From Scatophagus argus (Eukaryota; Chordata; Actinopteri; Scatophagidae): a stretch of DNA of 64,000 nt. Made by a program: the position numbers and the translations under genes. Within the stretch, counting starts at the first letter, position 1. Every line of letters begins with the position of its first letter. Below are positions 28,500-54,526 of the stretch, piece by piece. The stretch covers positions 13,432,318-13,496,317 of the forward strand of contig NC_058506.1 in assembly GCF_020382885.2 (NCBI RefSeq). Reading direction: 5' to 3'. Below the pieces are notes generated by a model. That model did no database searches, was not told where the DNA came from, and saw nothing but the letters and a program-made list of their open reading frames with translations.

Positions 28500-28632
28500 T
28501 TCAGTCTGGGAGGCAAACACCTGCTCCATGTTTAAATGTAGGCTTAAAATGTTCTTTTTTTGATAAAGCTTATAGTTAGGGCTGGGCTAGGGTTGCCCCT
28601 AGTTATGCTGTTAAAGGCTTAGACTACTGACA
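28500..28632 (+). repeat. Unclassified dispersed repeat fragment
   Basis: The stretch TTTTTTGATAAAGCTTATAG, then TTAGGGCTGG and GTTATGCTGTTAAAGGC, is one I recall as a common dispersed sequence in fish genomes. Its family is not known to me. It abuts the OR fragment that follows and may mark the rearrangement that removed that gene's 5' part. Confidence 0.35.
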
Positions 28633-28633
28633 A

Positions 28634-28880
28634 AGAAAGAGTGAAAGCCTTTTAAACCTGCACTGGTCACCTTTCATTAGTGGCAGTGAATGTCATATTT
28701 GTCTATTTCTTTGGGGCAACGATACATCCAAATGCCGGGATCATAGTTTTGTCTCTGACCACTGTCATCCCTCCTACGCTGAACCCAGTCTTTTATGTTC
28801 TGCACACACAAGAAATCAGAGAGTCTTTGAAAAAGTTGTTGAAAATCAGAGGGCAATCCAAATTTGCAAGAAAAACCTAA
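28634..28880 (+). pseudogene. Olfactory receptor 3' fragment (TM6-TM7 only)
   Basis: Encodes only the end of an OR of the same lineage as genes A-C: TCTGHLSLVAV (TM6 entry), ATIHPNAGIIVLSLTTV, then LNPVFYVLHTQEIRESLKKL and a stop at 28878-28880. Everything before TM6 is missing, and the join at the KAF-TC position is out of frame. It marks a fifth ancestral copy in the + array. Confidence 0.88.
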
Positions 28881-34973: not shown

Positions 34974-35114
34974 ACACTCATCATAATACCATTATGTCTG
35001 TGTCATCCATTATGGACAGCTTCAAGTACTGAAGTGTACTACAGTGTAATGTATTGTTTAACATCATCTTAATTTGAAACAGGATGAATAACCATTATCA
35101 CTTTTTACAAGGTC

Positions 35115-35167
35115 TGACAGAGGTGTTTACTGTAGTACATCATGTACTACAGTAAACACCTCTGTCA
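35115..35167. repeat. Perfect 53-bp palindrome
   Basis: Two 26-nt arms (35115-35140 and 35142-35167) are exact reverse complements around a single central C. The left arm starts TGACAGAGG and reaches GTAGTACAT. No second copy of either arm was seen. It would form a very stable hairpin or cruciform. Confidence 0.92.
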
Positions 35168-35799
35168 TACTGACTGTAAAGAGTCAGTAATGACCAAACA
35201 AGCCTAACAGTTTTCAGATTTGTCTAACCAAACTGAATACACATTGGTTCATTACTACTCACACAAAAGGACTGAACTGATGTGGTGCAGCAATTTTTAA
35301 AATGTTGTTGACGGGACATCACACTGAGCATCATTTTAAGTAGTTCAGTCGAATTTGTAAAATGAATTTTTGTGGTTACACGTCATCACATGTTGCGTCT
35401 CATTTTTATTCCACACCCAACATCTTCAAAGTAGACAAGACTATTGAAAACATATCCCATCATGAGGCCAACTTCACACAAATACACAAATGCAATAATA
35501 ACTAGTTTGGATCTAATCAGACTATCTTCAGTGGGACACTGACAGCTTTTAGGGTTCTCCGGTTATATTACTTGATCACAGAATGATCACTTTCAAGATG
35601 TTTATTATAAATGTTATGGAACAAAAAGTATTCTTAACTTGTGTAACATCTTAATACGAACCACATGACAGAGTGAAACACCTGCTTTGACTTTTAGTTT
35701 TCAGGTTTTATCACATTTCAAAGATTGATTACAAGATCACATGAAGATTTGTATATTACATAATTATGCCCCTGCTTTAGATATAAAGTGTTAGTTTTA

Positions 35800-35985
35800 T
35801 TTTTTCAGATGAATGCCAAGCTTCAGACATTTGATTTTGACCTCTTTGGTTTTCAAACGATATACAATAGGACTGATGCAGGGTGGGATACCAGAGAGCA
35901 GTAACTCAGCACACACTGGTCCTGGTCAGTTTGATCATCTCTCTACTCCTTCTGAAGGCTGGGATGCTGTACATGTAGTCCCATC
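35800..35985 (-). pseudogene. Olfactory receptor 3' fragment
   Basis: On the minus strand the piece encodes PPCISPIVYRLKTKEVKI-like sequence, the TM7 and tail signature of the minus-array ORs (NPIVYSLKTKEIK), preceded by broken sequence around a DQ.V.S motif. Everything upstream is lost. Of the OR-related pieces in the minus array it is the furthest left, so the array once held at least four genes. Confidence 0.8.
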
Positions 35986-36260
35986 AGAGTAAAATAAAAC
36001 ATAATAAAAGAGGCTATTGCTGTGAATCAGGACCCTTGACAGTTTAATCACTCTTTAATTCAGTTGGGAGGTTTCTGGGTTCAGTTTTATTTATCGTCGT
36101 CATTACTGGGTAATTGCAGTTCTCATTTAAGATGACTTTAATTTACCTTTCCAACAAATTCATGAGATGCTGTATAAAATGGAAGTCAGATGTCAGTGAA
36201 CATTTTGTTAACTTTGTATGCACAAAGTAAACAATACGATGATTTGAGTATTACGTAATG

Positions 36261-36410
36261 TTCCCCAAGGATGCCTTAATCATTAAACAGGCCATTGTGT
36301 GCCAAAACAAACTGGTTCTAATAGGCCCAGTTTGTGATGCCATTGCCAGAAAATTTTGCCCAATGACCTCTACTTGAACAGACCGTTTAGACTTTAGACT
36401 AATTAATCCC
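36261..36410 (+). promoter_or_regulatory. Conserved AT-rich OR-cluster element, copy 1
   Basis: Starts with TTCCCCAAGGATGCC, a close match to the O/E (Ebf) consensus YTCCCYRRGGARR. Next come TTCTAATAGGCCCAGTTTG, a CAATGACC word and TAATTAAT (36400-36407). Four further copies of this order occur to the right, in the same orientation. It lies between the minus-strand OR fragment at 35.8 kb (upstream of it) and the 3' end of the OR at 37.0 kb. Enhancer function is inferred. Confidence 0.55.
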
Positions 36411-37031
36411 AGGTGTGGCTGTTACAAATATAAACGATGATGGCAAATTAATGGAAGTGTATTATACTGGTTCTGTGAGGCTGTTATTTCATTCAATATA
36501 CACTCACTTTCCAAGAGCAGCAAGACAAGGGACAGTGATCATCCTCGTCCTTCTTTCTTTCTTAAAGGTTGTGCAATCTGTTAACTTCCATTCTTCTTTT
36601 CAACTCAAGATATCATTGGTTATCCTTTTAGGTGGCCTTGTCAGGTGTCAGATGCGCTGGTTTTAGACAGGGCATTTTTGCACAGAAGAGATAACCCTGA
36701 CAAAAGTTCAAATACAAAAGTTTATGTGGTGCAAACAGTGTGTGAAATACCACTGATGAACTCAGTGATGAAGGACTTTATAGACAGTTATATCACATTG
36801 TCCCCGAATTATCGGGGTCTTCATAACAAATTGACATGTATTATTATATTTCAGTTAATGCAAATTCAACGAAATGCAGAACAGTAACTTATTCATACCC
36901 TGTCCTTGACCCTGACAAGCTCATGCCACCCAAAACCGGTGATCCATTTGAGACTTTTCTGCTGACAGACAACATTATGTTAGCACACAGTTCAGGCTCT
37001 TTGGTCACTGCGCAGACATATCGATCCTAAA

Positions 37032-38030
37032 TCATTTTTGTGTTTTATTAACCCTTTTTTGTTGGCATGTTCGTTGTGCGCCAGTTTTTCTTACCAGTGC
37101 CACGGCACTGATTTTGATCTCTTTGGTTTTCAAAGAATATACAATAGGATTGATGCAGGGCGGCAGGCAAGAGGCCAGTGACAGACTCAGCACACGCTGG
37201 TCCGGATCAATGACTCCCAGGTAAAATCCAATAATGAAAATGGTCAAGAGAGGAATGTAGAACACAGCAACAAGAATGAGATGCTCGACACAAGTGGCCA
37301 AAGCTTTCATCCGACTGTCTAAAGATTTCATCCTGAACACAGTCACCAGGATGCTGACATAAGACAGAAGAATAAAAGTAAACGGGCTGACAAGGAGTAA
37401 AACAGAGAGAAAAGAAGCTGCAGACCACTGCAGTGTGTAATCGTTACAGGCGAGTCTAAACACGGGTGCGTAGTCACAGAAATAACTGAACACTCTGACA
37501 GATTTGCAAAAAGACAGTCGAGTCATTAGACTTGTAGTAAATGTTGTTACTCCCAAAGAAAAAGACCAAGTCAGGCCTACAATACAAGACATGCTCCGCA
37601 GTGTGTTGATTGAGTTCTGACGCAGAGGAAAACATATTGCAATCAACCTGTCATAAGCAAGGATGGCCAGTGCATATGACTCCAGTGATGCAAAACAATA
37701 GTAGATAAACATTTGTACCAAACACAAATTGAATGGAACAAAGTTATCCTTAAAGAGAAATACCTTTATCATGCTGGGAATAGTGCATGTGTTCAGGATG
37801 ATATCGATTACTGCAAGATTGACCACAGCCAGAAATTTTGGAGTGTGTAAACAATGATTAAAGGCAATTACATAGATCACCAAACTATTGAACAGCACTG
37901 TAACCACATAGACAAATGTTAGAAAGACAAAATAGATGCTGATGTAGGGAAATGTCTCAAATCCGATGATATAGAAGCCTGGAGGATGAATGATGAGAGT
38001 GTTGTTTAAAGCAGTCCTGAGAAAAGACAT
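37032..38030 (-). CDS. Olfactory receptor (class A GPCR), - array gene E1
   Basis: Coding part is one uninterrupted frame of 332 residues starting MSFLRTALNNT. Marks: NNT sequon at 9-11; VLFN in TM1, where most ORs have GN (F for G, shared by all three minus genes); LHTPKF at 61-66; AYDRLIAICFPL at 125-136; SYFCDYAPVFRLACND in EL2; KALATCVEHL at 242-251; NPIVYSLKTKEIK in TM7. A noncoding first exon and a 165-nt 5'-UTR intron (38085-38249, GT-AG) are predicted. The tail is longer than in its sisters (AQRTCQQKRVNKTQK). TM3-EL2 resembles gene E3, while TM5-TM7 is identical to gene E2. Role: odorant receptor in olfactory neurons. Confidence 0.93.
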   Translation of the reverse strand: MSFLRTALNNTLIIHPPGFYIIGFETFPYISIYFVFLTFVYVVTVLFNSLVIYVIAFNHCLHTPKFLAVVNLAVIDIILNTCTIPSMIKVFLFKDNFVPFNLCLVQMFIYYCFASLESYALAILAYDRLIAICFPLRQNSINTLRSMSCIVGLTWSFSLGVTTFTTSLMTRLSFCKSVRVFSYFCDYAPVFRLACNDYTLQWSAASFLSVLLLVSPFTFILLSYVSILVTVFRMKSLDSRMKALATCVEHLILVAVFYIPLLTIFIIGFYLGVIDPDQRVLSLSLASCLPPCINPIVYSLKTKEIKISAVALVRKTGAQRTCQQKRVNKTQK

Positions 38031-38084
38031 AGCTGTAGTCCACAGCCTGTGCTGTTTGGAGCCTCTGCTTAAAAACTCTCCTGT

Positions 38085-38373
38085 CTGAAGAGGGAAATCA
38101 CACCATATTCTACATTAGACCTCCATAGAGGCTACAAACCACATGTATAATTTCAAACCAGTTTGATCAGCACATTCAAATTCAGCAGTATATAATAACA
38201 TAATTTCAGCAAGTTCAAACATGTCCTAAAATCAGTGAATGTGCCTTACCTGATGTTCTCTTAAGGATTGTTCAGCATCTGTTTGATGCTGCATCCAAAA
38301 GCAGCTAACAGGTGACTGACTGTTTGGCTTGTGTGCACCAGAAGATATAGTTTCCACATCGATCTCTTGAGAT
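38085..38373 (-). promoter_or_regulatory. Promoter and 5'-UTR intron of OR gene E1
   Basis: On the minus strand ATCTCAAGAGAT (38362-38373, perfect O/E-like palindrome) is followed by CTATATCTTC (TATA-like). After about 110 bp comes a donor CAG|GTAAGG (boundary 38250/38249). The acceptor CCCTCTTCAG|ACAGG ends the intron at 38085. The same arrangement occurs at genes E2 and E3. Confidence 0.55.
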
Positions 38374-38949
38374 AAAGGTTCCAGCTCATAAAGTCATTTT
38401 ACAATACCTCATTAATGGCATTAATTTGATCTATAAAGTGATTTTTTACTCTAATTAAACTTGCCAAGTGCTCAGAACAAGCATTTTTTTTTTTTTTTGG
38501 TGATGATGATTTAGTAGGTCTGTGAATCACACACTTCTTTTGAAACGCAGATATATGGAAGCTTACCAAAATAAGAGGATAGTTTTTGAATTCAGCACAA
38601 TGAAAAACTAATCAAATAGCACTATTGTGCCTTCCTGACTGCAGTGACTTGAAGTGAGATTTGTACTGAATCATTATTGAATAAATATGTCCCTGACTTG
38701 GCTATACCAATATATACTTCCTGAATTTACATTAATCATTAAAACAGATTGAGGATCTCTTGTCCAAATTAACAATATTAACAATTAAAACATTACCTGT
38801 AAACTTGCTAACCTACAATTTATGTTAAGGAGACATATTTTACAATTAAAAAAATCATGTCATATTACTCCTTAGTGGACAAATATATAATTAAGACACC
38901 ATTTATAAATGAAGGTCCAAGACAAGATTTTTTTGTACCTTCTTATTTG

Positions 38950-38955
38950 TTTATT
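38950..38955 (-). terminator. coa4: Poly(A) signal of coa4
   Basis: TTTATT on the plus strand reads AATAAA on the minus strand, 72 bp past the coa4 stop codon. Confidence 0.6.
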
Positions 38956-39027
38956 TTTCTTACAAATATTTTATAAATTACGTATAGTTTTTACGAATGC
39001 GAAGCAGATTCTAAACACATCCCAAGT

Positions 39028-39282
39028 TCAGCTGGCTGCAGACTGAGCGGAGGCTGACTGCTGCCTCCTCAGCTGTTCTTTATGAGCATTTTGGAAATTC
39101 ATCATGCAGTCTTTGAACATCTGGACCTGGCTCTGGCACACTCGCCAGTCCTGGTGTTCAGCCATGCACTCCTGCACAGCATAATGCAGCTCGGCACAGC
39201 CAGTGCGGGATATCATCCGTTCAACAGGGTCATCCTCGTCATCGTCTTTACGGCTGCGGTCATGGGGTGAAGGGGACGCCAT
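39028..39282 (-). CDS. coa4: Cytochrome c oxidase assembly factor 4 (CHCHD8), twin CX9C protein
   Basis: 84 residues in one exon. The CHCH domain has two exact CX9C motifs: Cys29-Cys39 and Cys49-Cys59 (EC MAEHQDWRVCQ between them). A charged N-terminus (DRSRKDDDEDDPVERMISR) precedes it. I recognise the QDWRVCQ..V..FKDCM pattern as COA4/CHCHD8. Proteins of this class are imported into the mitochondrial intermembrane space and oxidised by the MIA40 relay; COA4 helps assemble cytochrome c oxidase. An acceptor CCTCAG|CAGACC (AG at 39319-39320) suggests a noncoding 5' exon, with a possible donor at 40163/40162 (AGCAG|GTATGA). It lies between OR genes E1 and E2 on the same strand, an unrelated housekeeping gene inside the OR array. 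Confidence 0.93.
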   Translation of the reverse strand: MASPSPHDRSRKDDDEDDPVERMISRTGCAELHYAVQECMAEHQDWRVCQSQVQMFKDCMMNFQNAHKEQLRRQQSASAQSAAS

Positions 39283-39329
39283 CCTGTGTCAATGCACAGC
39301 GCCGACTCCGTGGGTCTGCTGAGGACAAC

Positions 39330-41757
39330 ACGGGATTTTATCAATAAACTATCAATAATACAATCTTAGGGACAACCACAGCACATCCCCGCTGTTCCTT
39401 CAGCATGCCTCTGCTGTTTAGCAGTGACCTATTTCTAAATTCGAAGCCGTAAAATTTGCAGTATTTTATAGACCTTTCTTTAAAATGCCTTTTCAAAAAT
39501 TATGAGAACATAGTCAAACATTTAATAAGGTACTGCTCCATCAGTAACGTTTTAACACTGCACTTTTATTCATATTTGCTAATTTTTTTTTTAGTCTTCA
39601 TGGTTGATGGTATGTGTTGTACACATATTCTATATGCTTTGTGAAAAAGCATATTGTTTTAATCATAATTATCATTTGTGTGACATAATACATCCTAATG
39701 GAACAGCATCGTATTTACTGAACGACTGTACAGTTGTGTATAGTACAATTTTTGAAGTATTTGTATTTTGCATCTCAGCAGCTTCACTCTTTAATTACAC
39801 TGTATTTCAGCTACTTTGACGATAAAGATGCAAAACACATTATCGTGTCAACACTTTAAACGAGCTGCGCCTCGACAAGCTGCACACTGAAGTTTTTAAC
39901 AAAGCCACATATCGTGGCTACTTATAATCGAGTAAAGATAATAATACTTCAGCTGAATACTGATATCCAGCAACGAAAATACTCGGTAGCGTCGGACCAC
40001 CGTGGTCATTTTATACATTTTAGTAGTACTTTGGTTTCAATTCAGTTCGGTGTAAAGTCGTTTAAGGCTCCTTGACGTTACAAAATACGACATAGTTGGC
40101 TGTGGAGAATGCAGCTAAAATGAACGAACAAACATTTTTACACAATTTTTCCTTTTTCATACCTGCTTATTCCCTCTGGCTCAAACTGCTAGTCGAAACT
40201 GTAATTAAGTGTACATAACCTGCATAACCCTGAACATGTCAGGACTAGATACACGAACAGGCGTTATCACGGGGGACACATTTGAGCGGAGGACCAAAGT
40301 GTAGCTTAAAAGTAGTTCCGTAAGACATACAGTGGTTCCGCTTCATACGGACGACTGAGATTATTTCAACCTCTGATATTTACCCCAAAACATCAGAAAT
40401 GACATTTAAACACTGACCGGGACGAATCTTGTGCCTAATGAATACTTTTGATAATTCAAGTAAATTTTGAAACTACATGCTTCCTCTTAAGTAGTTTTCT
40501 GAAATTTTGAATGCAAGACTATTTCTCGTGGCGCATTTTTGCGATGTGATATTAATGTTTTTGCTAAAGATTAATGTATAAAGTAATTTAGTGAATAATT
40601 TGTAGTCTAGCTATCGATGAATGCAAGCTCGCAGGATGAACATATTATCCTGGATTTATGTGGAGCCTGCACTCAAGACTGCACATTAAATCCACTAGAG
40701 GGATACAGTGCAAATCTGTACAATGTGCCTGAAGTTTATAGCTTTTTACAAAAGAGTTAGGCCACTATATCAGTGTAGATCATGTTCTATTTTATAATGT
40801 TTTGAGTTAACAAAAATCATTGTATTATCTCAGACAGTATGAAGACCAGTGGGCTCTATGATTTGACTAATGGAGCTTGAAGTGGGCTATTGATTAATAA
40901 ACCTTAAAGACAAAGGTGACTGTTACTGTGGCTATTTTTAAATAGGGTGTAGGTGTAGGACATCTTGTTTGATTGGGTCCCTCAGTAAAGCAAACTTAGC
41001 CACATAGAACAGATATTTCACACACGCAGGAAATCTTCCAAAAGGGGAAATGAGAAATGTAGTTGTGAAGCTGTAGCATCATTTGTTTTTGTTTTAAACA
41101 TTTTGGGCATTTAATTCAACATGAAAATGACACAACATGACAATCACATAATATCATGTAACTGCACAAGAGTGCATCTTGTCTTATGCTTCAAATCAGT
41201 GTTGGCATAATGTTTAACTAAGACATAATCTTAACGTTAGGGCTTTGTGATAAAACATGAACAGGTATAGCCATTTTCTTGTGTAAAAATATAGAGATGA
41301 AGTAGGTTTTACTGGTTCACAGTTTCTTTCTACAAGGCAGGGTTGTATAGTGACACTATGTAGAATGGCATGGAAAAATCAACAACATTGGCCATTAAAT
41401 CTCACTCAACATCTTAGTATATACATAAAATATATAATTACAAACCTAAAGACACAAGTGAACAAACTGACCCAACATGTGGAATAACCTTGATTAAAAA
41501 GACCACAAAGAACACAACAAACTTGTGAAGAAAGTGAGCAGAAGATCATTTATGCCTTTTTCTACAGTGAAATCACCTGATCCCACAATTGTTCCTTGGT
41601 TGGGTTAAGGTAAGGGGAAACACAACCTTTGACACAACACGTTGGTCATATAATGAAAAGCTTGACCAGAAAAATTAGCCACGCTGTTCACTTTTGGCTA
41701 ACAGTCGTTTAGAGCCTGAATTTTTGCAACATTTCATTAACCCGCCAAAGTTTGCTC
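39330..41757. other. coa4 upstream region and spacer
   Basis: No other gene recognised. The interval probably holds the coa4 first exon and promoter (about 40.16-40.33 kb; uncertain). A partial CTCF-like core is present (CCACTAGAGGG, 40692-40702), within a 16-bp stretch identical to that at 34955. Confidence 0.5.
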
Positions 41758-42729
41758 TTAATGCTGATCTATGAAAATTTTATTTTTTCTTACCAGTGCC
41801 ACAGCTCTTGTTTTGATCTCTTTGGTTTTCAAAGAATATACAATAGGATTGATGCAGGGCGGGAGGCAAGAGGCCAGTGACAGGCTCAGCACACGCTGGT
41901 CCGGATCAATGACTCCCAGGTAAAATCCAATAATGAAAATGGTCAAGAGAGGAATGTAGAACACAGCAACAAGAATGAGATGCTCGACACAAGTGGCCAA
42001 AGCTTTCATCCGACTGTCTAAAGATTTCATCCTGAACACAGTCACCAGGATGCTGACATAAGACAGAAGAATAAAAGTAAAGGGGCCAACAAGGAGCAGG
42101 AAAGTAAGCAAAGAGGCCACAGACCACTGCAGTGTGTAATCGTTACAGGCGAGTCTAAACACGGGTGCGTAGTCACAGAAATAACTGAACACACTGACAG
42201 AATTGCAAAAAGACAGTCGAGTCATTATACCTACTGCAAATGCAATTATTCCAAGAGAAAAAGACCAAGTCAGGCCTACAATACAAGACATGCTCTGCAG
42301 TGTGTTGATTGAGTTCTGACGCAGAGGGAAACATATTGCAATCAACCTGTCATAAGCAAGAATAGCCAGTGCATATGACTCCAAAGTCCCAAAAGCATAG
42401 TAGATAAACATTTGTACCAAACACAAATTGAATGGAATGAAATTATCTCGAATGAGAAATATCTTTATCATGCTGGGAATAGTGCATGTGTTCAGGATGA
42501 TATCGATTACTGCAAGATTGACCACAGCCAGAAATTTTGGAGTGTGTAAACAATGATTAAAGGCAATTACATAGATCACCAAACTATTGAACAGCACTGT
42601 AACCACATAGACAAATGTTAGAAAGACAAAATAGATGCTGATGTAGGGAAATGTCTCAAATCCGATGATATAGAAGCCTGGAGGATGAATGATGAGAGTG
42701 TTGTTTAAAGCAGCCCTGAGAAAAGACAT
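41758..42729 (-). CDS. Olfactory receptor (class A GPCR), - array gene E2
   Basis: 323 residues starting MSFLRAALNNT, all OR marks intact: NNT sequon, LHTPKF, AYDRLIAICFPL, SYFCDYAPVFRLACND, KALATCVEHL and NPIVYSLKTKEIK. It is nearly identical to E1 from the end of TM5 to TM7 but differs in loop 1 and TM3 (IRDNFIPF; YYAFGTLESY) and in TM4 and TM5 (LGIIAFAVGIMT; VASLLTFLLLVGP). The tail is short (VRKNKIFIDQH). A 161-nt 5'-UTR intron (42789-42949) and an O/E-like promoter are predicted upstream. A copy of the conserved AT-rich element lies 0.8 kb upstream. Confidence 0.93.
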   Translation of the reverse strand: MSFLRAALNNTLIIHPPGFYIIGFETFPYISIYFVFLTFVYVVTVLFNSLVIYVIAFNHCLHTPKFLAVVNLAVIDIILNTCTIPSMIKIFLIRDNFIPFNLCLVQMFIYYAFGTLESYALAILAYDRLIAICFPLRQNSINTLQSMSCIVGLTWSFSLGIIAFAVGIMTRLSFCNSVSVFSYFCDYAPVFRLACNDYTLQWSVASLLTFLLLVGPFTFILLSYVSILVTVFRMKSLDSRMKALATCVEHLILVAVFYIPLLTIFIIGFYLGVIDPDQRVLSLSLASCLPPCINPIVYSLKTKEIKTRAVALVRKNKIFIDQH

Positions 42730-42788
42730 AGCGGTAGTCCACAGCCTGTGTTGGAGGACAGCCTCTGGTCCACCAAAAACTCTCGAGT

Positions 42789-43071
42789 CTGAAGAACAGG
42801 GAAATCACATATTCTGCATTAGACCATGGACTTCTATGGAGGCTAAGAAATAAAATTTAATACACAACTTTCATGCTGTTGTACTATTTATGCAGTATAT
42901 TCTCAGCAGGTTGAATCATGCAAATCACAAGTTAGTCAAAGAAGTTCACCTGATTTTCTGTGAAGAATTGTTTGTCGCTAACTCATAATGCTGACTCTTA
43001 AAGCGGCGTGCAGATGGCGGCATGTCTTGAGGACAGTCACAAATATGTTGTCATGACTGATCTCTGGGGAT
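42789..43071 (-). promoter_or_regulatory. Promoter and 5'-UTR intron of OR gene E2
   Basis: On the minus strand ATCCCCAGAGAT (43060-43071) differs by one base from the O/E core TCCCYRRGGA. ACATATTTG follows as a TATA-like word. Then a donor CAG|GTGAAC (boundary 42950/42949) and an acceptor TTCTTCAG|ACT (42789). The distance from O/E site to ATG is 331 bp, versus 332 in E1 and 320 in E3. Confidence 0.55.
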
Positions 43072-43512
43072 CAATTAACCTTGAACTGAAACAGATGAAT
43101 TCACTGTGCAATGCATGTCAATTAAATTAATTTAAACGTTGGCTATAGGTGGTTTACAGCATAGTGCATAGTAATTACTGTGTGTTTTTCATTTGAGCCA
43201 CTCATGTCTAATTGGAAAACATGTGGTTTGTCTCAAGTGCTGCCTAAATTCAAATCTAATGACCTCCATAGGCTCTAGTGGACAGTCAGCAAAATTTCAT
43301 GTGGAAAAGAAGTGAGGAACAGCCACAGTGTAATCACTGATTAACTGAAACAGTTATGTTTGTTTTCTAAACAGGCAAGAAGAGAAAGTTGTACTAAAAA
43401 TATTCATGGGAAGCTTGATGCAAGTGTGAGGACCACACATTTTGTGAAATGTGTTTGTGCAAAGTGAAGAAACAGTGACAAACACACCTAATCGCTCCTC
43501 TACCACATAATG

Positions 43513-43691
43513 ATCCCCCCAGGATGCATTTATCATTACTCAGGCTACGTTGAGCCAAAACAAAAATGATTCTAATGAGCCCAGTTTGAGATGCCAACAC
43601 CAGAAAAGTTTGGTTAATGACCTTGACTTTAACAAACAAACCATTTACTGTTTAAACTCAAGACTAATTAATCTCAGTTGCACCTATTAGG
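43513..43691 (+). promoter_or_regulatory. Conserved AT-rich OR-cluster element, copy 2
   Basis: Same order as copy 1: CCCCCCAGGATGC (O/E-like, 43515-43527), TTCTAATGAGCCCAGTTTGA, GGTTAATGACC (homeodomain-like, 43612-43622), AACAAACAAACC (fork-head-like), TAATTAAT (43665-43672), then CACCTATTAGG. It lies about 0.8 kb upstream of OR gene E2 and 1.6 kb beyond the 3' end of OR gene E3. Confidence 0.6.
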
Positions 43692-43959
43692 AATAAAAAC
43701 ATGGTGTGGATGTACATCCAGTTGTTTCATTCAGATTACACCAGCTTTCAAAGTGCCGCAAGAGAAATGGCAAACGTCTCTCGCTCGATACTCCAGCATG
43801 CGTGATTAGTTTTGTTTTGTTTTGGCTCTACTAGTTCTGCTTTGTTTTATAACTTGTAGGCCTCCTTTAAATACTTACAAACACTAACCTTCATTTAGAC
43901 TATTGTGACTTTATTATTTCTATTTTGTCTGTCATGGTGCTCATTTGAATCACTGACAG

Positions 43960-44405
43960 ATGTGCAGTAAAAACTATTGATTAAATGGGTCCCAAATAAG
44001 TAGGAATGCTTTGTAAAACATGAATAAAATAGAATATGCTAATCCTTTTTGATGTATACTCAAATGTATTACCTGTCTCAACAAGTTGGGACAGGGAAAA
44101 TAAAAGTCTTAAAAAGTTATGGAATAAAACATCAGTTTGGGTCATTTAACAGGTGAAAAGGTTCATTCAGTAACAGGTGATATCATCATGACTGGGTGTG
44201 AAAGGAGGCTCCTAGAAAGGTTCAGTAAATCACAAGCAAAGGTGATGTGAGATTCAGCACTTTGTGAAGGAAATTACTACATGGGCTTGGGAACAAACTA
44301 AAACTGTTCTCAGTAAACACAATTTGTTTGCAAATAACTGCATTCTGTTTATTTACAGTTTTTTCTGTTTGATTTACATTTTGCAACCTCCCAACTTGTT
44401 TGGAA
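43960..44405 (+). mobile_element. Tc1-like non-autonomous element, internally deleted
   Basis: CAACAAGTTGGGACAGGG, then AACAGGTGATATCATCATGA, CACAAGCAAAGGTGATGTG and AGCACTTTGTGAA follow the left part of a common fish Tc1-like element. CATTCTGTTTATTTACAG and CCCAACTTGTTTGGAATC match its right end. The transposase region between is gone. Boundaries are approximate. Confidence 0.7.
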
Positions 44406-45340
44406 TCACGGTCGCACTTTCTGCTCCCTAACCTACTTACATGTTTATCACGATAAACTTTGACTTTTTGTCTATAGATTATTGAACTTTGTTGGTTCAC
44501 TTCATAGTGAGGGACATGTAAAGAGAATACTCTGCCCATGTTTTCTTAGAGCACTGCACCGAACCTGCACACCTGCACAAAATGTTCACATTTAGATATT
44601 CATCTGTCCCGTATCTATTGAAGTGTGATGTATGCTCCACATAAGGTGAAACATTCACCTAGAAAGTTATAGTATGGAACCACCATGCACATGTCTGAGT
44701 CCATATGCATGTTATTTCTCTGCATAAGCCATTCTCTTCTGCCTAAATCAATTTAAAAATATTTCAGTCAACCAGTGTTTTCATATGAGGGCTGTGCCCT
44801 GTACAGTGAGCCATGAGGTAGCTTAGCTAAACTTACTTCAGTATGATAGAAAAATGAATTTCTGTTGTGAGGGAACCAGCACCAAGTGCTTCATGTAAAC
44901 ACAATAATGTGACATCTCTTTTATCAGATATTTTATGGGGGAAATGTGAGATGTAGTAATATACAGTCAAGGAGAGTTTCGGTATAACAGAAGGACCAGA
45001 CCACTCAAACGTACAAATACCATTCATTTACATTCAAATACAACAAGTATATTTTGTATAAAGTAAGGCACCAAAATAACAAAAGAAATGGGACATGCAT
45101 TTTATTCACATGTCGAATATGGTGAGTGTTTAAATAATAGCAGAACCTCCATCCAGAAAACCATTATTGTATAATAAGGAATAAACAATATGACAAGTGT
45201 GTTATTTTAAAGGTTGATACAGCAGACAAAACCTTCAGTAAAATAATCCCCTTTTGTTTCATCACACGCTCACAGCCTTTGTTGTTTCCTGAGAGGCATA
45301 AAACCTTATACAGAATACTCTTTGATGAAAAAGAATTTTG

Positions 45341-46303
45341 TCAAGGTCTTGTTTTCATTCTACGGACCAGCGTCAGGGCTCTGGTTTTAAGCTCTTTAGT
45401 TTTCAAAGAATATACAATAGGATTGATGCAGGGCGGAAGGCACGAGGCCAGCGACAGGCTCAGCACACGCTGGTCTGGGTCAATGGATCGCACATAAAGC
45501 CCGACTAAGAAAATGCTGAATATGGGAATGTAAAATACAGCAACGAGGACTAGATGTTCAATGCAAGTGGCAAGAGCTTTCATCCTACTGCTGACTGATT
45601 TCATCCTGAACACAGTCACCAGGATGCAGGCATAGGACAGAAGAATGAAAGTAAAGGGGCCCATCAGATTCACCATACTAGAAGTTGAAGCCACAGACCA
45701 CTGCAGTGTGTAATCGTTACAGGCGAGTCTAAACACGGGCGCGTAGTCACAGAAGTAACTGAACACTCTGACAGATTTGCAAAAAGACAGTCGAGTCATG
45801 ATTGCTGTGCTATAAGCAACTCTTCCCACATTGTAAACCCAAGTCAGGCCTACAATACAAGACATGCTCTGCAGTGTGTTGATTGAGTTCTGACGCAGAG
45901 GGAAACATATTGCAATCAACCTGTCATAAGCAAGAATAGCCAGTGAATATGACTCCAGTGATGCAAAACAATAGTAGATAAACATTTGTAAAAGACATAG
46001 GTTAAATGGAACAAAGTTATCCTTAAAGAGAAATACCTTTATCATGCTGGGAATAGTGCATGTGTTCAGGATGATATCGATTACTGCAAGATTGACCACA
46101 GCAAGAAATTTTGGAGTGTGTAAACAATGATTAAAGGCAATTACATAGATCAGCAAACTATTGAACAGCACTGTAACCACATAGACAAATGTTAGAAAGA
46201 CAAAATAGACGCTGATGTAGGGAAATGTCTCAAATCCGATGATATAGAAGCCTGGAGGATGAATGATGAGAGTGTCGTTTAAAGCAGCCCTGAGAAAAGA
46301 CAT
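45341..46303 (-). CDS. Olfactory receptor (class A GPCR), - array gene E3
   Basis: 320 residues starting MSFLRAALNDT (sequon NDT at 9-11). OR marks: LHTPKF, AYDRLIAICFPL, SYFCDYAPVFRLACND, KALATCIEHL and NPIVYSLKTKELK. The N-terminal 160 residues are close to E1. TM4 (VYNVGRVAYSTAIMT), TM5 (VASTSSMVNLMGP) and TM6 to loop 3 (FSIFLVGLYVRSIDPDQ) are its own. A 143-nt 5'-UTR intron (46359-46501) and an O/E-like promoter are predicted. It is the outermost recognised OR of the minus array; no OR follows to the window end. Confidence 0.93.
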   Translation of the reverse strand: MSFLRAALNDTLIIHPPGFYIIGFETFPYISVYFVFLTFVYVVTVLFNSLLIYVIAFNHCLHTPKFLAVVNLAVIDIILNTCTIPSMIKVFLFKDNFVPFNLCLLQMFIYYCFASLESYSLAILAYDRLIAICFPLRQNSINTLQSMSCIVGLTWVYNVGRVAYSTAIMTRLSFCKSVRVFSYFCDYAPVFRLACNDYTLQWSVASTSSMVNLMGPFTFILLSYACILVTVFRMKSVSSRMKALATCIEHLVLVAVFYIPIFSIFLVGLYVRSIDPDQRVLSLSLASCLPPCINPIVYSLKTKELKTRALTLVRRMKTRP

Positions 46304-46358
46304 AGCGGTAGTCCACAGCCTGTGTTGGAGGACAGACTATACTTAAAAGCTCTTCAGT

Positions 46359-46634
46359 CTGAAAAAGAGGAAAACAATACATGTGATTACTTATTGCATT
46401 ACTCTCTCCATTAACACACACTTGTACGTTTGGCATTTAAGTTACTGACACCATTTTTCTCATCCTTGTTGATGAGTATGAAAACCACAGAATGTGCTCA
46501 CCTGTTACACTTATTACACTCGTTCTACGTGGTGTGACTCCATATGATGCAGAATCCAAAACCAGCCAATGAATGTCTGCACGCCTGACTTCTGATCAGT
46601 GGAAGATATACCCTCTACGTGGATCTCCAGAGAT
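46359..46634 (-). promoter_or_regulatory. Promoter and 5'-UTR intron of OR gene E3
   Basis: On the minus strand ATCTCTGGAGAT (46623-46634, palindromic O/E-like) is followed by GGTATATCTTCC. A donor ACAG|GTGAGC (boundary 46502/46501) and an acceptor CTTTTTCAG|ACTG (46359) come after. Distance to the ATG is 320 bp. Confidence 0.55.
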
Positions 46635-46864
46635 AACCTACACTCTTCTAATTGAGAATAACATTAATGAGCAATATCTAAACTTGATTCCAAAGGACTT
46701 GGGAGGCTGTGTAAAATGTTTGGCCTTTATTGAGTTGAATGCAGTAAAGACTGCTCAAACTGATACATTTCATTGTTTTTTGCACTTGTGCTGAGTGCAA
46801 AAAAACCCAAAAAAAACCCAAAAACACCTGAACACTCCACTGTTCACCACTATGTGAAAAACTA

Positions 46865-46975
46865 CATAGATTTTGTCATCTCCAATCCATAATTTTGTTA
46901 AAAGATTCAGAGAATCCAGAGAAATCTCTGCAGATCTTGGGCAAGGCCTGCTTTCAGTTTGTCTCGTGTAGCGCA
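46865..46975 (+). mobile_element. Tc1-like transposase fragment (HTH region)
   Basis: Translates to SPIHNFVKRFRESREISA followed by a GQG-like stretch, matching the DNA-binding helix-turn-helix part of Tc1-like transposases (usual form STVHNIIKRFRESGEISA). Only this piece was seen. Confidence 0.7.
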
Positions 46976-47077
46976 ATATGTAGCACTTCATGAAGCACAA
47001 AACATAACAACAGAAACTCCAGAGACCAGAAGCTGTATATCAGTGAATAATGGGAAAGAATACACAGAATACACAGA

Positions 47078-47600
47078 TACAGTATATAGATAAAATATGG
47101 GGACACCCAGAAGTTGCACCAACAGGGATTTAAATGACATTAAATACATAGACAGCTTTGCAGCTATAACAACTTCCACTCTTCTGTGAGTATTTTGGAC
47201 TGTTTCTGTGGGAATTTTTGCACATTCATACATTAGAGCATTTGTGAGGTCAGACACTGATGTTCATCTGTTCATATTCATTTGTTCCAGTTCATCCCAA
47301 AGGTGTCGGATGGGGTTGAGGTCAGGGCTCTGTGTGGGCCAGTCAAGTTCTTCCACACCAAACTCATCTATCCATGTCTTTATGGAGCTTTGCTTTGTGT
47401 GCTGGGCCCCAGTTATGCTGGAATAGAAAAGGGCCTTCCCCAAAACTGTTGCCACAATGCTGGAAGCATAGCATTGTCCAAAATGTCTTGGTGTGCTGAT
47501 GCATTAAGATTTCCCTTCAGTGAAAGTAAGGGGCTGAACCCAATCTATGAAAAGCATCCCCATAAAGAGGTCTGTCTGGATATTTTTGTCTATATAATGC
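47078..47600 (-). mobile_element. Tc1-like transposon, internally deleted, both ends present
   Basis: Left end ACAGTATATAGATAAAATAT followed by GGGGACACCC; right end GGATATTTTTGTCTATATAA followed by TGCA. These are the inverted ends of a common fish Tc1-like element. The minus strand at 47264-47455 encodes the transposase C-terminal block DWPTQSPDLNPIRHLWDELE. A sequence of about 0.5 kb is left, so it could only be moved by a transposase supplied elsewhere. Confidence 0.88.
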
Positions 47601-48142
47601 ATCATCATCATTTGGACATCTCAACAAGATATCAGCTGAGGAACACATTCACTGCTAAAGAACTGAGTTCATGGAGCAGCTGTGTAACACTCATGCTCCA
47701 TGTGGAGTCTGTGAAGTTCTTGGATGGGCTCTGCAAAGGCCTTCAGGGCTGAACCTCCCCACTACGTTAATTGCAACTTCTGCACTGGAGGACAAAACTG
47801 GAGATAAGATGTACAGTATGTATGTAGGATGTCTGAAGCTGTAAAACAGTTCAACCCGTAGTTAATGGGGAGCCAAGAATGAAAATAAAATAAAGTTGCC
47901 CTGTATTTTAAACTTGGACACTTCAGGCTACTGACAAGCCACTACATTATGTATGTAATAATTTCTGTTTAGATATTTCATGTAATGAGAACTCAGGATG
48001 GTGGTGTAATCTGCAGAATACACATAAATCTTTACATGACACAAAGTGGGTGAAAAACAAAAAGTTGCATGCAGTTGAATGCATCATCCTCTCTTAAGGG
48101 GCCATTTAAAGAGCCTTCTGCTTCATCTTATACCTCAGAGCC
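47601..48142. other. Spacer
   Basis: No gene recognised. The open reading on the plus strand from 47282 runs antisense to transposon sequence and continues by chance to 47752. Confidence 0.5.
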
Positions 48143-48262
48143 TTTCTAATGAACCCAGTTCGAAATTTCATTATTAAAGCTTTGCAGGTTAATGACCTTT
48201 CTTATGACAAACAAACCTTTTAATATTTGGACCTTTCCATAATTAATCTCACTTGCATGTAT
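48143..48262 (+). promoter_or_regulatory. Conserved AT-rich OR-cluster element, copy 3
   Basis: TTTCTAATGAACCCAGTTCG, GGTTAATGACC (48187-48197), GACAAACAAACC, then TAATTAATCTCACTTGCA (TAATTAAT at 48240-48247). No clear O/E site; the 5' flank is less conserved than in copies 1, 2, 4 and 5. It is 1.8 kb upstream of OR gene E3. Confidence 0.55.
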
Positions 48263-48655
48263 TTGCAAGTCTTGTAGTTTCACAATTGGAGGGAAATTGG
48301 AGGCCCTGTGCACAGTCAGCTTTTCCCCAAGAGTCACTCTTGTGGAATAACAAGTTAAGTTTCTTTGGACTATACAGTAACACGTCATTTGATTTCGTAA
48401 TGGATTTAAATTAAATCTTGAAATGCATTCAATTTCCCAATAAACTAACAATCAAAGCTTTGATTTTATAGTTGGCTTACATGCTAATGTACCTCTTCCT
48501 GCATCCTGGGTGTCAAGCGGGGCCAATAAAAATATAATACTGAGTGACTGGCCATACACACAGAGGGCTCAGTGTCTGGTATAAGAGACCATTCTTGCAT
48601 AAATCTTCGAACAAATTCCACCCTTTGTATAAACTGAAGCTTGAAGATGAATAGC

Positions 48656-48869
48656 ATTCCCTAAGAGGACTTTAGTCACCAAACAGGACATGCTGACCCC
48701 AGACAAAAGGATCTTCTCCTTCCTCTCTGACTCCTGGGAAACCTGCTAATGAGCCCTATTTATGATGTCATTACCAAACGATCCTGGTTAATGACTGCCT
48801 GCCTGTAACAAACAAACCTTTTACTGTTCAGACTTTAAGCCTAATTAATCTCATCTGCATCCATTAGGA
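48656..48869 (+). promoter_or_regulatory. Conserved AT-rich OR-cluster element, copy 4
   Basis: ATTCCCTAAGAGGACTTTAG at the 5' end, CTGACCCCAGACAAAAGGAT, GACTCCTGGGAAAC (reverse: TTTCCCAGGAG, O/E-like), GCTAATGAGCCC, GGTTAATGACTG (48786-48797), AACAAACAAACC, then TAATTAATCTCATCTGCATC (TAATTAAT at 48842-48849) and CATTAGGAA. It is about 0.5 kb from copy 3. It shares its 5' half with copy 5 rather than with copies 1-2. Confidence 0.6.
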
Positions 48870-51800
48870 AGTTTTGCACTCTTGCAATTATAACTGTTAT
48901 GGGAAAGGGTGCACACTGATGTAAATGAGTCATTAGTGTAAAAAGATCATGTAACACCCTTTCTAAAATTAGTAGCCTATGAGTGACAAACAATGCGTGT
49001 AATTAAACTTTAGACTGGGTTCATAGTTACTTGCTGCGTTGGGATAGGTAAACAACGGTGCACTGCAGAGTAAACACAATGAATGCAATTCATTCAGACA
49101 CCTAGAAGTTACAGCAGCAGCAGAAAAATTCAAAGTACTTCCATACAACCTGCAACAGTAAAGGTTGCTAATAATGATGTGAAGAGTAAGCACAATTAAC
49201 CAATCAAATGTCATATGAAATTATATTAAATGTAGTTGTCGGCTGTAAATGAGTTCAGAAATGTCTCTGGAATGTGGCATAAAAATTTTAACACCTGTTG
49301 GAAGCTGCTGTTAAACGAGTACTGATCCAATATCAGTACTCCCCTTTTCCCATATTTAAAGTCTTTATGGAACTCAAAACACAGTCAAATGAGTGATAGG
49401 AGAAACAGAGCGTTTTTTTAACGACATGGACAAAGAAACTTTATTTATTATGGATCAGACATGACTGGCTGATACCCAATCCATTCAGATAGTGATCCTG
49501 GGTATGTAATGTGTATTTAATTCTGTAATTCTTCTGAACATGTAATAAAAAATGCCTGTATATATTATTGTCTTTTCAGACATTGTTGTCATTTTAAGAA
49601 ACAACATCCTGTCATGAAAATATTCCACATACTTTGCATAGCAGTGTACACAACAGAAGCTTTAGTAATTTGGTGTCTCAGTAATTTCAAAGCATGAATT
49701 GGTCAAATGAGCTGTCAATGAGGAATCATCCCAAATGTGAGATCTATACTAAAACAATAGTAAATTGATGAACTGTGTTACATATACTGTATATAATTTA
49801 CACAAAATGAAGAGAGTGAGTTCATTTATTCCACGCGGCTGTAACATTAGGCTTTCAGGTTGTGAAGGTTTAAATGACTCGTGGCTACTTGATGGTAGTG
49901 ATTATGTGTCAGATATGTCTCCCTGACATATTTGCATTCCTTCCTTTTTTAATGAATGAGGGAAGAAGACATGAACTAGACTAAAAGGTTGAACAGTAGA
50001 GCGTTTGTTTGTTTACAGACAAGGTCATTATGCGTCACTCCCCAGTGACGCCATCACAACTGGGACTCCAGAGTCTCTCTGAGAGTTAAGAGGCAAGATG
50101 TTTTTGTCTTGGGTCATGACATCCCTCTTAATGGAATTGTAAATTCAGAGGGGAATCACATGGAATCGACAGTAGAAGGCAATAAATAATGATATAATTT
50201 ATGTCCCCTGGGCTCTCTGATATGGATCTGTGTTGTATTTTCAAGTCAATCAAAGAAAAAAAAAATACACTGACCTTGGCTGTCTATTATATCCACGACA
50301 AACCTTGATTTGATGATTTGCACAAAGAGCGAACTTAAAAAGCCTGGGCTGGGCTTTGATTTATGTATGTTATTTTATGCATGAAGATCCCCAAAACAGG
50401 ATTTAGAGTTTCAGGATCACGGACAGTGAGTCACATCGCAGGTTTTAGTTATGCAGTTTGCTGGTGGGAGGAGTTTCAAAAAGAAAGAACATTTTAACAA
50501 ACCGATGATCTATGGCTCCACCTAAACTGACCGATCTACATTTCTGTGATCCTGACATTGAGTTGTGATTCTTTTTATTCCTAAGAACCTAAAAACCAAA
50601 ATATTGACAGTAGTGGTATGCTATTGAGAAAGGATTTATAGATAACCAAATTGACATGTTTTTGGCTAGTTGAGCTGATTCATAACCTGAAGAACCAACG
50701 CACTTAATGAAATTATATTGCAGTGATACCAGAATCTTGTAAATCCAACAGTAAATCAGTGATGCTTATTTATTTGTAACACTGACACCAATGGCCCAAA
50801 ACAAATATAATAAAGCTAAATGGTGAGGCTAAATTTCTGATGGTTGACAAACATTTCACAGCATGTGCTATCATAGTACCCAGCCATACTTAACTACATT
50901 AACTATGTGACATATCCACTACTGAGAAACCTGAAGACATGGATAGTCTGAAGTACAAAATTAAATTAATGTGAATATGACAGAAAGCTCAGTGCATTAG
51001 GCCTACTGCCAAGAAGTGCTTACAATGGTCACTGTCGCTTAAAACTCTATAAATGCACTCATGATATTATGATATAAACAGAAAAACAAGTGAAAAAATG
51101 CTACTAAGCATATCATCCAGTTTTTGCCCTTTGTCATTTCCAAGAGTAAAAGAAAAGCCTTTGGACTGTTTGTCGGACAAAAGAACTGGGAAAAGTTTGA
51201 CGTTTTTTCTTGAAAAATGTCAATAATCAATCGATTATTAATAAACTTGATAATTGATTAATGGACTTAATTGTTGGAGCTTTACATCTGGTCCTGTCAA
51301 TCACACAAAATACAACAAGGACACTTCACTATCACACCTCTCATATACTGTACAAGTTCACTGTAAAAGCTTGTTTGTAACTCTGACTTTGGATTTTGAG
51401 ATTTTAAATTCTGACTTCTGTGTTTGGGTATCTTTGTAGATTATGCTACAGAACAGTAAGATAGAAAAATAAAGAATAAATAAAACTAATAATAATTTAC
51501 TACAAATTACCTCATCAACACTGTTATTGTCCTTCTCAGGCAACCTTAAAAAAAGGAGTAGTAAACAGCTCATGAAACAGGCAGTGAATGGTATGAAGCT
51601 AGATAAGAATAAATGCAACTGTGAGCTCACTTCAAAGTGGCATTAAAACACATACCAGCTAACTCTGTCCAGCTGCATTTTAGCCAAGTGGCCACACGAG
51701 GGCAATGCATTACAGTTTAATTTTTAGATTTTAATAGTGAAGGGCAAAAAGGGGTGCAAAAAGTTAGTGTGTACTCACACACTGAATGATATAATAAGGT

Positions 51801-53887
51801 TTTACTCAACTACAAAACATTTGGCGTTTGGCACAAGAAGTACACCAGTGGACAGTATTGTGTTTGAACCACTGTGACAAAGCTGCACCAAATATAAATG
51901 CGTGAGGGGAAATAAAATGGTGAACATAGTGAGCTGTAATGGCTTGTACTGTGGTTCAGGTTGAAATTCAGGCAGTGATAGTTGAGGTTGTACGGAGAGC
52001 AAAGAGCTCCTTGAATGCTCAGAAAGTGACAGACAGGTTGTCAGAGCAGATGCTGCTTTCTCCGAGGTAACAGGTCAATGTTATGACCGGTCAGATGATC
52101 GGCAGCTTCTCTTCACTGGAGGACAGCATGAAATATTCAAAATGCTGAGGCTGCATTTTTTTCACAGCCATTTGAATGAGAAGCTGCCCATCACGTATTC
52201 ATGCTGCTCAGACAGACTCACTGGCAGCTAATTAGCAGGGCTGCAGTAGATGCTGGAGTGATTAATGAGAACTGGATTTGATGAGCGTGAAACTTTCAGT
52301 AAATAAGATGAATGATGGTTAAAAGACATTTAAATCCTTTCTAATCATTTCTTTCAGAGCTGCTTCGGTGATTAAAAACAAACAATATACTGAATTATAT
52401 TCATGCGTGGCTGTAATGTAAATGAAGCCACAGTGAGCTTTTGGCAAATGTAGTAGAATGAGCAAAAGATTTCCAGTTTAATTAGGAGAGCTGTTTGTTT
52501 GATATATAGACAATAATTCTGTTTTTAATCACGCAAACAATGGAGATCCACAAAAGCCTGTTTTTTTTATTTTTTACATGCCTGCATATAACTTAAAAGT
52601 CCTAAATTAAGGTGGACACAGGCTAAGAAACATCTACATGACAAGTTTTCTTAGTGTTTCTTCTGGTTTCAATGTATCATGCTGCCTTCAGTGAAAGTGT
52701 ATGATAATGTGCTGCTAAAATTCCAGTTGAGCGTGCCATAATAAGTCCACAATAACTGCGCACCTTAGAGATTTACTTATTCATTCACATATTGATGGAG
52801 TGATTTCTGGTTGTCCTTGAGAGGACAGCCCAGATAGTCTAAAAGCTTAATTAATGGCTCTCAGGAGCAAGGCAGCTGCTGAGGAGCGTTCAGTACCACA
52901 GGCAGCAACCTTTAAGAACTGCTGTTAGGTGTTCATGAAATCACAGCGCCTTAAGGTCATCAGGAAGTTTGTCCGTGATGCAATATAGAAGTAGCCATGG
53001 TAGGATATTTGAGTTCTGTGAGTCGCGTTTTGATCTCTTTCATCATGCTTGGGTTATGCACCAATGTGACCTTTTCAATCATCCTATCAACAAGGGAAGT
53101 GAAGGATATTAATGTTTCTTGATAACTGATTTATCTGATCCAAAATGAGCACCTGTGCCCTCGCTTGAAAGAACTTAATGTGTGAAATTTGTGGATTAAT
53201 GTTTGTCCTGACATGAGAGATAAAGGTCAGAGCTCGCTCTCTCTTTCCCATAGGCTCATTCCACACACTGACATGTTTTCTTAGAAAGTAACAGGCAAGT
53301 CAGTGGGTGTAATTAGTGTATAGATCTGAGGCACCTGTACAGCTTATTAACACAGAGTCTGTTCTCCTGGTCAAAGGCCAATCGACCAGCCAACTGTGTT
53401 TACACACATGGTGCAGGATCAACTAAAACCCACGTAAAGACTGCAGTCGTCCTCTTTGTTACCTGATGTGGATCTAATCAAAACCCACATGACCTTTGAG
53501 CTCAGAAAAGAAGAAGTTCACAAAGTTAGACTTCAGTACGTTGGTTCCCATGGCTTGTGAATGGACGGCAGAGTGGCCAGAAGATGGAAATATTGAGTGG
53601 AGCGGTGAAGTGGTAAGCTACGTTTGATGCATTATTTCATATCTATCTCCCTGATTTACATCTTCGACAATCTCATTTTAGTGTGTGAGAGCTCTGAATA
53701 AGTTAACAGAATAAAATGTACAAGGGGAAATATTGTTCTTTTTACTGCCCTAGATTAAGACATATAACATATAGTTTTACTTAAGTAACATCTTCAGAGC
53801 AGGACTTCTACTTGTAACGGAGGATTTTAGGGTGTGGCATTAATTCTTTTACTTGAGTAAAGAATCTGAATACTTCCTTCATCACTG
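48870..53887. other. Intergenic spacer
   Basis: No gene recognised. AT-rich, with scattered short frames lacking family similarity. The stretch 52.0-52.3 kb has mixed composition and homeodomain-like words (CAGCTAATTAGCAG; AGTGATTAATGAG) and may be conserved regulatory DNA; this is an impression only. A weak CTCF-like word (CCACACGAGGGCAA) lies near 51.69 kb. Confidence 0.5.
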
Positions 53888-54050
53888 TTCCAAGAGGGAC
53901 AGAATGACCCCAGACAAAAGCATTCTGACTCCTGGGAATCTTTCTAATGAGCTTTCTTTATGATGACATTAGCAACAAATGCCAGTTAATGACCTCGACT
54001 GGAACAAACAAACCTTTCACTGCTCAGATTTAAGCTTAATTAATCTCATA
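53888..54050 (+). promoter_or_regulatory. Conserved AT-rich OR-cluster element, copy 5
   Basis: TGACCCCAGACAAAAG, CTGACTCCTGGGAATC (reverse: ATTCCCAGGAG, O/E-like), TTTCTAATGAGC, CAGTTAATGACC (53983-53994), GGAACAAACAAACC, then TTAATTAATCTCAT (TAATTAAT at 54037-54044). It is about 7.6 kb beyond OR gene E3, 5 kb before tpbgl, and has no OR next to it. Confidence 0.6.
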
Positions 54051-54526
54051 AGAACTTGTTATGCATCCTAAGCCTGCACTCTAATGATTGCTGGTGCACA
54101 TTAATAATTAGTCATTAAGGTTGGTCTGAAAATCTGCCACTTAATTTAAAGTAAACATGTTGAATTGTCAAATGGGGAACCCTGCTGTGACACATATTAA
54201 GGGCTGCGTGCATCTCAGCAGTGCTTGGATGAACCCTCATTGACTTCCTCTTGAGGGAATCCCTGATGTCATTTTAGGTGACATCCAAACCTCTAAAATC
54301 TGATCTCAAGTGGAAAAAACTTTGCCTTAAGGAAAGTAAGTCCAATATGAGCAAAGCTAAAGTTTGAGCCAGGAAATATCTAACAAGGGAATTAGATTAA
54401 TTAAGAATCTAAACGGATATTCACTACCAACCTTTGTTAGTTGGCTTTTGATGCTCGAGCAGTAGACCAATACATATCAGCCAGGCTGATCATCCAGTTT
54501 TATTTCATTGCAGAAGTATCAGCACT

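Follow-up and report, generated by a model that had tools for sequence, protein, structure and literature searches.

The 64,000-bp stretch of the Scatophagus argus genome analysed here, referred to throughout as the window (C14:13432318-13496317, on contig NC_058506.1 of a 570.7-Mb assembly of 48 contigs), contains seven open olfactory receptor (OR) genes with a match to Pfam 7tm_4, four on the plus strand and three on the minus strand (ORm1 to ORm3). In or beside this cluster, and always in intergenic DNA, lie six diverged copies (c1 to c6) of a non-coding element of roughly 200 bp, confined to 18 kb of the locus. Judged from their sequences, these copies constitute a repeat family that is real, old and local, and whose role is probably regulatory. 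Their coordinates, and those of the neighbouring genes and fragments, are given in Table 1.

Table 1. Element copies, genes and gene fragments of the window (positions numbered from its first base).
Feature	Position	Strand	Remarks
Copy 1 (c1)	36256..36437	+	Decayed: TAATAG, CAATGA, without ACAAACA; retains TAATTAAT; O/E-like CCCCAAGGA at left end
Copy 2 (c2)	43508..43702	+	Four cores present
c2 core	43573..43673	+	TAATGA 43573, TAATGA 43615, ACAAACAAAC 43632, TAATTAATC 43665
Copy 3 (c3)	48084..48277	+	Four cores: 48147, 48190, 48207, 48240; left part aligns poorly
Copy 4 (c4)	48652..48880	+	Four cores: 48747, 48789, 48808, 48842
Copy 5 (c5)	53890..54070	+	Four cores: 53945, 53987, 54004, 54037
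Copy 6 (c6)	49941..50151	-	Inverted; second TAATGA and ACAAACAAAC kept, first and last homeodomain cores lost
ORm1, OR gene (7tm_4)	37032..38030	-	
ORm2, OR gene (7tm_4)	41758..42729	-	
ORm3, OR gene (7tm_4)	45341..46303	-	
OR gene fragment, 3' end	35795..35928	-	Beside c1; found by tblastn (35901-35818) and blastn
OR gene (7tm_4)	21857-22846	+	
OR gene (7tm_4)	25113-26093	+	
OR gene (7tm_4)	26814-27788	+	
OR gene (7tm_4)	31748-32722	+	
OR fragment	24133-24526		
OR fragment	28626-28874		
Ubiquitin-like exons, two (Rad60-SLD_2)	4852-5112; 7054-7410		
Leucine-rich repeat (LRR) gene	58924-60051	-	Only LRR families matched

Five of the copies had been recognized in an initial annotation of this DNA, and comparison of each of them, together with 300-bp flanks, against the window returned their relatives and one additional inverted stretch. 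The five are indeed homologous within 18 kb, far beyond chance; the accompanying statement that every copy runs in the same orientation fails, as the sixth reads from 50151 to 49941. A profile constructed from all six copies finds six places in the window, the weakest at E 4.1e-35, with the next candidate at E 1.7. Because these scores derive from the very copies used in training, the profile was rebuilt six times with one copy left out, and the omitted copy was recovered in each instance (E 3.9e-22, 2.3e-33, 1.9e-12, 2.6e-35, 3.5e-29 and 2.1e-16 for c1 to c6, respectively); on the reversed window the best E obtained with the six-copy profile was only 0.4. Fourteen of the 15 pairs of elements score between 23 and 86, where the maximum of the background is 25. 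Two of these, c1-c3 (23) and c3-c6 (24), fall under that maximum and the remaining pair, c1-c6 (16), is at background, so that the kinship of these three runs through other copies.

Beyond the element, similarity mostly falls to background level. Among the flanks (300 bp, 15 pairs, both sides), 25 of 30 comparisons do not exceed 18, the 95th percentile of the background; the exceptions are c1-c2 (24 on the left, 26 on the right), c1-c6 (left, 22), c5-c6 (right, 24) and c1-c5 (left, 20), to be read against the background maximum of 25. Pairwise homology ends raggedly, the left end of c4 varying from 48679 to 48746 according to partner, and that between c1 and c2 reaches past the element. Such boundaries bear on the possibility that the copies are decayed remnants of a mobile element (a miniature inverted-repeat transposable element or short interspersed element) which inserted several times locally, a notion that the similar size of the six copies and their occurrence in both orientations would favor. 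No terminal inverted repeat was found in the copies; inverted repeats occur in the stretches of four, where they are internal or short and none is common to all, and three stretches have none. Together with the ragged ends, the c1-c2 homology extending past the element, and the lack of any further genomic copy at the sensitivity of the c4 search described below, this makes a mobile origin very improbable, and the initial annotation was justified in preferring other explanations to a transposon.

The internal organization of the element is more informative. Following the J-element paper (PMC5638857), homeodomain sites were scored as TAATKR and O/E-like sites as YYYCARRRR. Copies c2 to c5 each contain three homeodomain sites (TAATGA, TAATGA and TAATTAATC) and one forkhead-like site (ACAAACAAAC), in nearly constant register: measured start to start in c2, c3, c4 and c5, respectively, the two TAATGA sites are separated by 42, 43, 42 and 42 bp, the second TAATGA and ACAAACAAAC by 17, 17, 19 and 17 bp, and ACAAACAAAC and TAATTAATC by 33, 33, 34 and 33 bp. 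The shared set of cores proposed at the outset thus holds for these four copies and not for c1, in which only the last core is kept. Counting both strands, TAATKR matches 28 times in the 1,240 bp of the elements, versus 5.3 expected at the rate of the window; as unique sites there are 23 (2, 5, 4, 6, 3 and 3 in c1 to c6), versus 223 in the entire 64 kb. The excess over dinucleotide shuffles has P values of 0.003 (c2), 0.009 (c3), 0 of 1000 shuffles (c4), 0.01 (c5) and 0.002 (c6), and the two 200-bp windows densest in homeodomain sites within the 64 kb fall on c4 (7 sites) and c5 (6 sites).

These cores have been retained while the words between them drifted, as first described: mean pair identity is 0.84 for GTTAATGAC, 0.91 for AACAAACAAACC, 0.86 for TAATTAATCTCA and 0.71 for GCTAATGAGC, words that were chosen for looking conserved, versus 0.57 across the remaining 73 columns of the core. 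Such choice is avoided in a shift test, in which every homeodomain match in any copy is scored for identity to the other copies and compared with 246 column shifts. Homeodomain 6-mers reach an identity of 0.788, versus 0.617 for 658 other 6-mers of equal A+T range, and none of the 246 shifts attains this value, a count that is not a probability given the relatedness of the copies. The homeodomain words are accordingly conserved above comparable words, as the initial annotation had supposed. Loss of cores in two of six copies (three of four in c1, two of four in c6) would fit duplicated DNA without present function, in which chance or gene conversion has preserved the core words. In c2 to c5, on the other hand, the three homeodomain cores are identical where 464 other 6-mers of equal A+T range average 0.659, their spacing is near constant, and gene conversion would be expected to homogenize longer tracts; we regard a functionless repeat as highly unlikely.

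The signature first assigned to the family combined homeodomain with O/E sites, and only its homeodomain half holds; the O/E half is weak and is not conserved between copies. The literal word CCC-NN-GGA/GAG does occur once each in c1, c2, c4 and c5, as reported, versus 0.48 expected in 1,240 bp. It does not occupy the same place, being found at the left end on the plus strand in c1 and c2, whereas c4 and c5 have it on the minus strand, 7 bases ahead of their first TAATGA; since c1/c2 and c4/c5 are sister pairs, these amount to about two independent cases in two places. The J-element form, YYYCARRRR, is found five times in the elements (1.9 expected), with exact matches in c1, c4, c5 and c6 and none in c2 or c3. 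At the left end it matches exactly in c5 and with one mismatch in c2 and c4; matches at this looser level are frequent, however (the copies contain 33, versus 20.8 expected), and the left-end columns are poorly kept (0.51). When c3 to c6 were examined by purine/pyrimidine pattern for a degenerate Ebf site, nothing stood out, the best O/E window ranking only 36th of 91.

The family appears to be peculiar to this locus. When the 570.7-Mb genome was queried with c4 DNA (E <= 10), four matches were returned, namely c4 itself, c5 (76%), c2 (78%) and c3 (71%); as c1 and c6 were missed, the sensitivity of this search, which reached 71% identity, is limited, and more strongly diverged copies may exist elsewhere. 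The gapped pattern TAATGAC..ACAAACA..TAATTAATC matches four times genome-wide, at c2 to c5, with none on the reverse strand and none for a backwards control; the pattern was drawn from those copies, and its informative part is the absence of any further match. Exact TTCTAATGAGCCC, found within the window only in c2, occurs at 10 places in the genome and is not specific alone; the combined core pattern is. Neither the c4 query nor the core pattern revealed the hundreds of dispersed copies that would have told against an OR-linked element. A search for OR genes gave at least 137 matches, fragments included, at ten places on contigs C5, C11 and C14, of which one consists of a lone gene, together with a partial match on C18. 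The six-copy profile was then applied to 32 fetched loci (264,104 bases), comprising the 30 kb that adjoin the window at each end, the whole of two further OR clusters (C14:9.06-9.10 and C14:22.58-22.66 Mb), six 10-kb stretches sampled from five more (C5:20.9, C5:25.8-26.07, C11:16.7, C11:23.6 and C14:23.27 Mb) and eight 3-kb loci with one core word; the OR places at C11:3.65 and C11:19.0 Mb were left out. The sole match was c2 in the window itself, the next candidate having an E of 0.23, and none was found in the 30 kb on either side. With seven of the nine outside OR places scanned, five of them in part, the element does not look like a general accessory of OR genes.

Since homeodomain-rich enhancers are not specific to smell, and c5, the nearest copy, lies about 5 kb from the LRR gene, the elements could instead have served that gene, or another non-olfactory gene, and been caught in the OR cluster. 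The location of c1 and c2 among OR genes, the distance of at most 2.6 kb between ORm3 and both c3 and c4, and the lack of profile matches within 30 kb of the window in both directions render this quite unlikely.

A closer relationship to the receptor genes is suggested by the position of several copies: 333 bp separate c1 from an OR fragment, c2 is 784 bp upstream of the ORm2 ATG (42729) and c3 is 1.84 kb upstream of that of ORm3. They might accordingly represent OR promoters, or upstream first exons, copied along with the genes, the more so as mouse OR promoters also carry homeodomain and O/E sites (PMC5318403). Yet homology between the OR genes upstream of their ATGs (approximately 345 bp for ORm1-ORm2, 333-345 bp for ORm1-ORm3 and approximately 75 bp for ORm2-ORm3) stops short of every element, leaving the copies outside the duplicated stretch of gene plus promoter, and no element was detected in the 3.6 kb searched upstream of ORm1 (best E 0.45). 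In addition, the region upstream of ORm3 holds four copies (c3, c4, c6 and c5, one of them inverted) that no intact OR gene interrupts, so that the arrangement of one copy per OR gene inside a duplicated promoter is not what is observed. Nor do the copies resemble exons or structured RNA: indels of 1, 2 and 11 bp inside the core argue against coding, no matches were obtained in Rfam and tRNA scans, and a consensus RNA fold of the copies contained no pairs. Copied promoters or first exons are therefore an unlikely account of the family.

The same comparisons qualify the proposal, made with the first description, that the element multiplied with the receptor array. Synonymous divergence (dS) among the three minus-strand OR genes is 0.135-0.316, while Jukes-Cantor distances among element cores are 0.25-0.76, despite the conserved words that the cores contain. 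The youngest pairs, c4-c5 (0.25) and c1-c2 (0.29), lie inside the range of the OR genes, and the other 13 of 15 (>=0.33) lie beyond it; most element duplications thus seem to predate those of the minus-strand OR genes that survive, provided that both evolve at similar rates and that gene conversion, which this dating ignores, is set aside. With this, and with the elements lying outside the duplicated stretch of gene plus promoter, support for the proposal is only loose. One old joint duplication may have given rise both to the OR fragment and c1 and to ORm2 and c2, the gene beside c1 having since been largely deleted. Such a deletion would fit the decay of c1, although global alignment gave no aligned block for the fragment.

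Taken together, position, grammar and uniqueness suggest, with moderate confidence, that the family most likely represents a locally amplified cis-regulatory element, partly decayed, that acts as an enhancer of neighboring OR genes. Copies c2 to c5 would be bound by an Lhx2-class homeodomain protein joined by a forkhead-class partner, and perhaps by Ebf at loosely placed O/E-like sites. Once bound, these copies, of which three cluster at 48-54 kb, would act in cis on ORm1 to ORm3, possibly also on the plus-strand OR genes, and would raise the chance of one OR gene being chosen in a sensory neuron. Tandem and inverted duplication within the locus would have produced the family, for the most part earlier than the duplications that gave today's minus-strand OR genes, with c1 and c6 as decaying spares.

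Several observations weigh against this interpretation. Enhancers of many other genes carry homeodomain sites too; c1 shows no homeodomain excess (shuffle P 0.17); and a stretch outside the family, 43058-43257, equals c2 with 5 TAATKR per 200 bp. Besides the relatedness of the copies, the value observed in the shift test only narrowly exceeds the highest value among the shifts (0.788 versus 0.781 for all copies, and 0.881 versus 0.858 for c2 to c5). For the forkhead-like motif (RYMAAYA) the result is weaker, at 0.714 versus 0.592 with 19 of 246 shifts reaching the observed value, and O/E-like words are not conserved by this measure (0.599 versus 0.551, 101 of 246 shifts), their excess being insignificant in each of the six copies (shuffle P >= 0.10). 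The lack of a copy in the 3.6 kb searched upstream of ORm1 and the assumption of similar rates in the dating must be counted here as well.

Among fishes, zebrafish E15-1 is reportedly an OR enhancer in which homeodomain sites occur with O/E sites. PMC5809090 mentions an enhancer close to the or111 cluster. Mammalian parallels include the mouse elements H, P and J, each with several TAATGA sites (PMC8213819); the homeodomain sites of J have an O/E-like site beside them (PMC5638857). J, the class I OR enhancer, resembles the present family in its short core with four homeodomain sites, one with TTTAATGA, an O/E-like site and a position in an OR cluster (PMC5638857, PMC7804114), and differs in standing alone, with 75 genes under its control across about 3 Mb. 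Two candidate links to J were rejected: the class I word AAACTTTTC, which among the copies occurs only in c2, on the minus strand, is present three times in the window, and an 11-base J primer match in c2 is one of four there. The H, P and Greek Island elements are likewise intergenic, with homeodomain sites, in OR clusters; no local multi-copy family is described in the relevant portion of PMC5608512, and the O/E-like sites of the present family are, by comparison, weak and unconserved. Foxj2 sites are also listed for mouse OR elements (PMC5318403). The TAAR enhancers TE1 and TE2 have conserved homeodomain sites and O/E-like sites that are not conserved (PMC8213819), a combination like that seen here, and TE2 holds three TAATGA within 206 bp (PMC8213717, PMC8213819); these T-elements, in contrast, serve TAAR genes of placental mammals and were not found in zebrafish (PMC8213717, PMC8213819).

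Amplification of chemoreceptor enhancers is not wholly without precedent. Cow, sheep and horse have a duplicated TAAR enhancer 2, a duplication that may have taken in Taar genes as well (PMC8213717), which weakens the original remark that no such family was known to have been described. Searches of open-licence PMC papers listed no recognizable report of a locally multiplied OR enhancer family, nor of a fish OR cluster holding an element family of six copies and rigid four-site grammar. With regard to the control of OR choice in teleosts, J and the TAAR enhancers were not found in zebrafish; J also drove no reporter there (PMC5638857), whereas reporter expression in zebrafish olfactory neurons was obtained with both TAAR enhancers and with the majority of the mouse OR enhancers tried (PMC8213717). 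The locus offers a compact natural series, with four copies of intact grammar and two with known losses, from which one could learn what sites, homeodomain or forkhead-like, and what spacings are important, and whether receptor choice depends on the number of enhancer copies. By analogy with the Greek Islands, which mouse olfactory neurons gather from several chromosomes, and with the artificial five-enhancer hub that Monahan et al. inserted at the Rhodes locus, the four intact copies, three of them within 6 kb, might even form a natural multi-enhancer hub in cis, a local counterpart of that gathering. We consider this doubtful; if true, copy number would set the choice frequency of a small OR cluster, and would evolve independently of receptor number.

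Other features of the locus deserve brief mention. Stretches 43058-43257 and 38644-38843, upstream of ORm2 and ORm1 and outside the family, contain 5 and 4 TAATKR per 200 bp and are perhaps OR promoters. The ubiquitin-like exons presumably resemble UBL3, and the LRR gene trophoblast glycoprotein. At 35093-35192, about 100 bases match their own reverse complement at 83%, in the manner of a small foldback element, and 11655-11749 and 29263-29167 form an inverted pair of 91% identity, perhaps a dispersed repeat. Elsewhere on the contig, about 22 kb from its end, three equal-scoring OR matches spaced 5,915 bp apart (C14:23268129-23280783) reflect either a recent tandem duplication or an assembly repeat.

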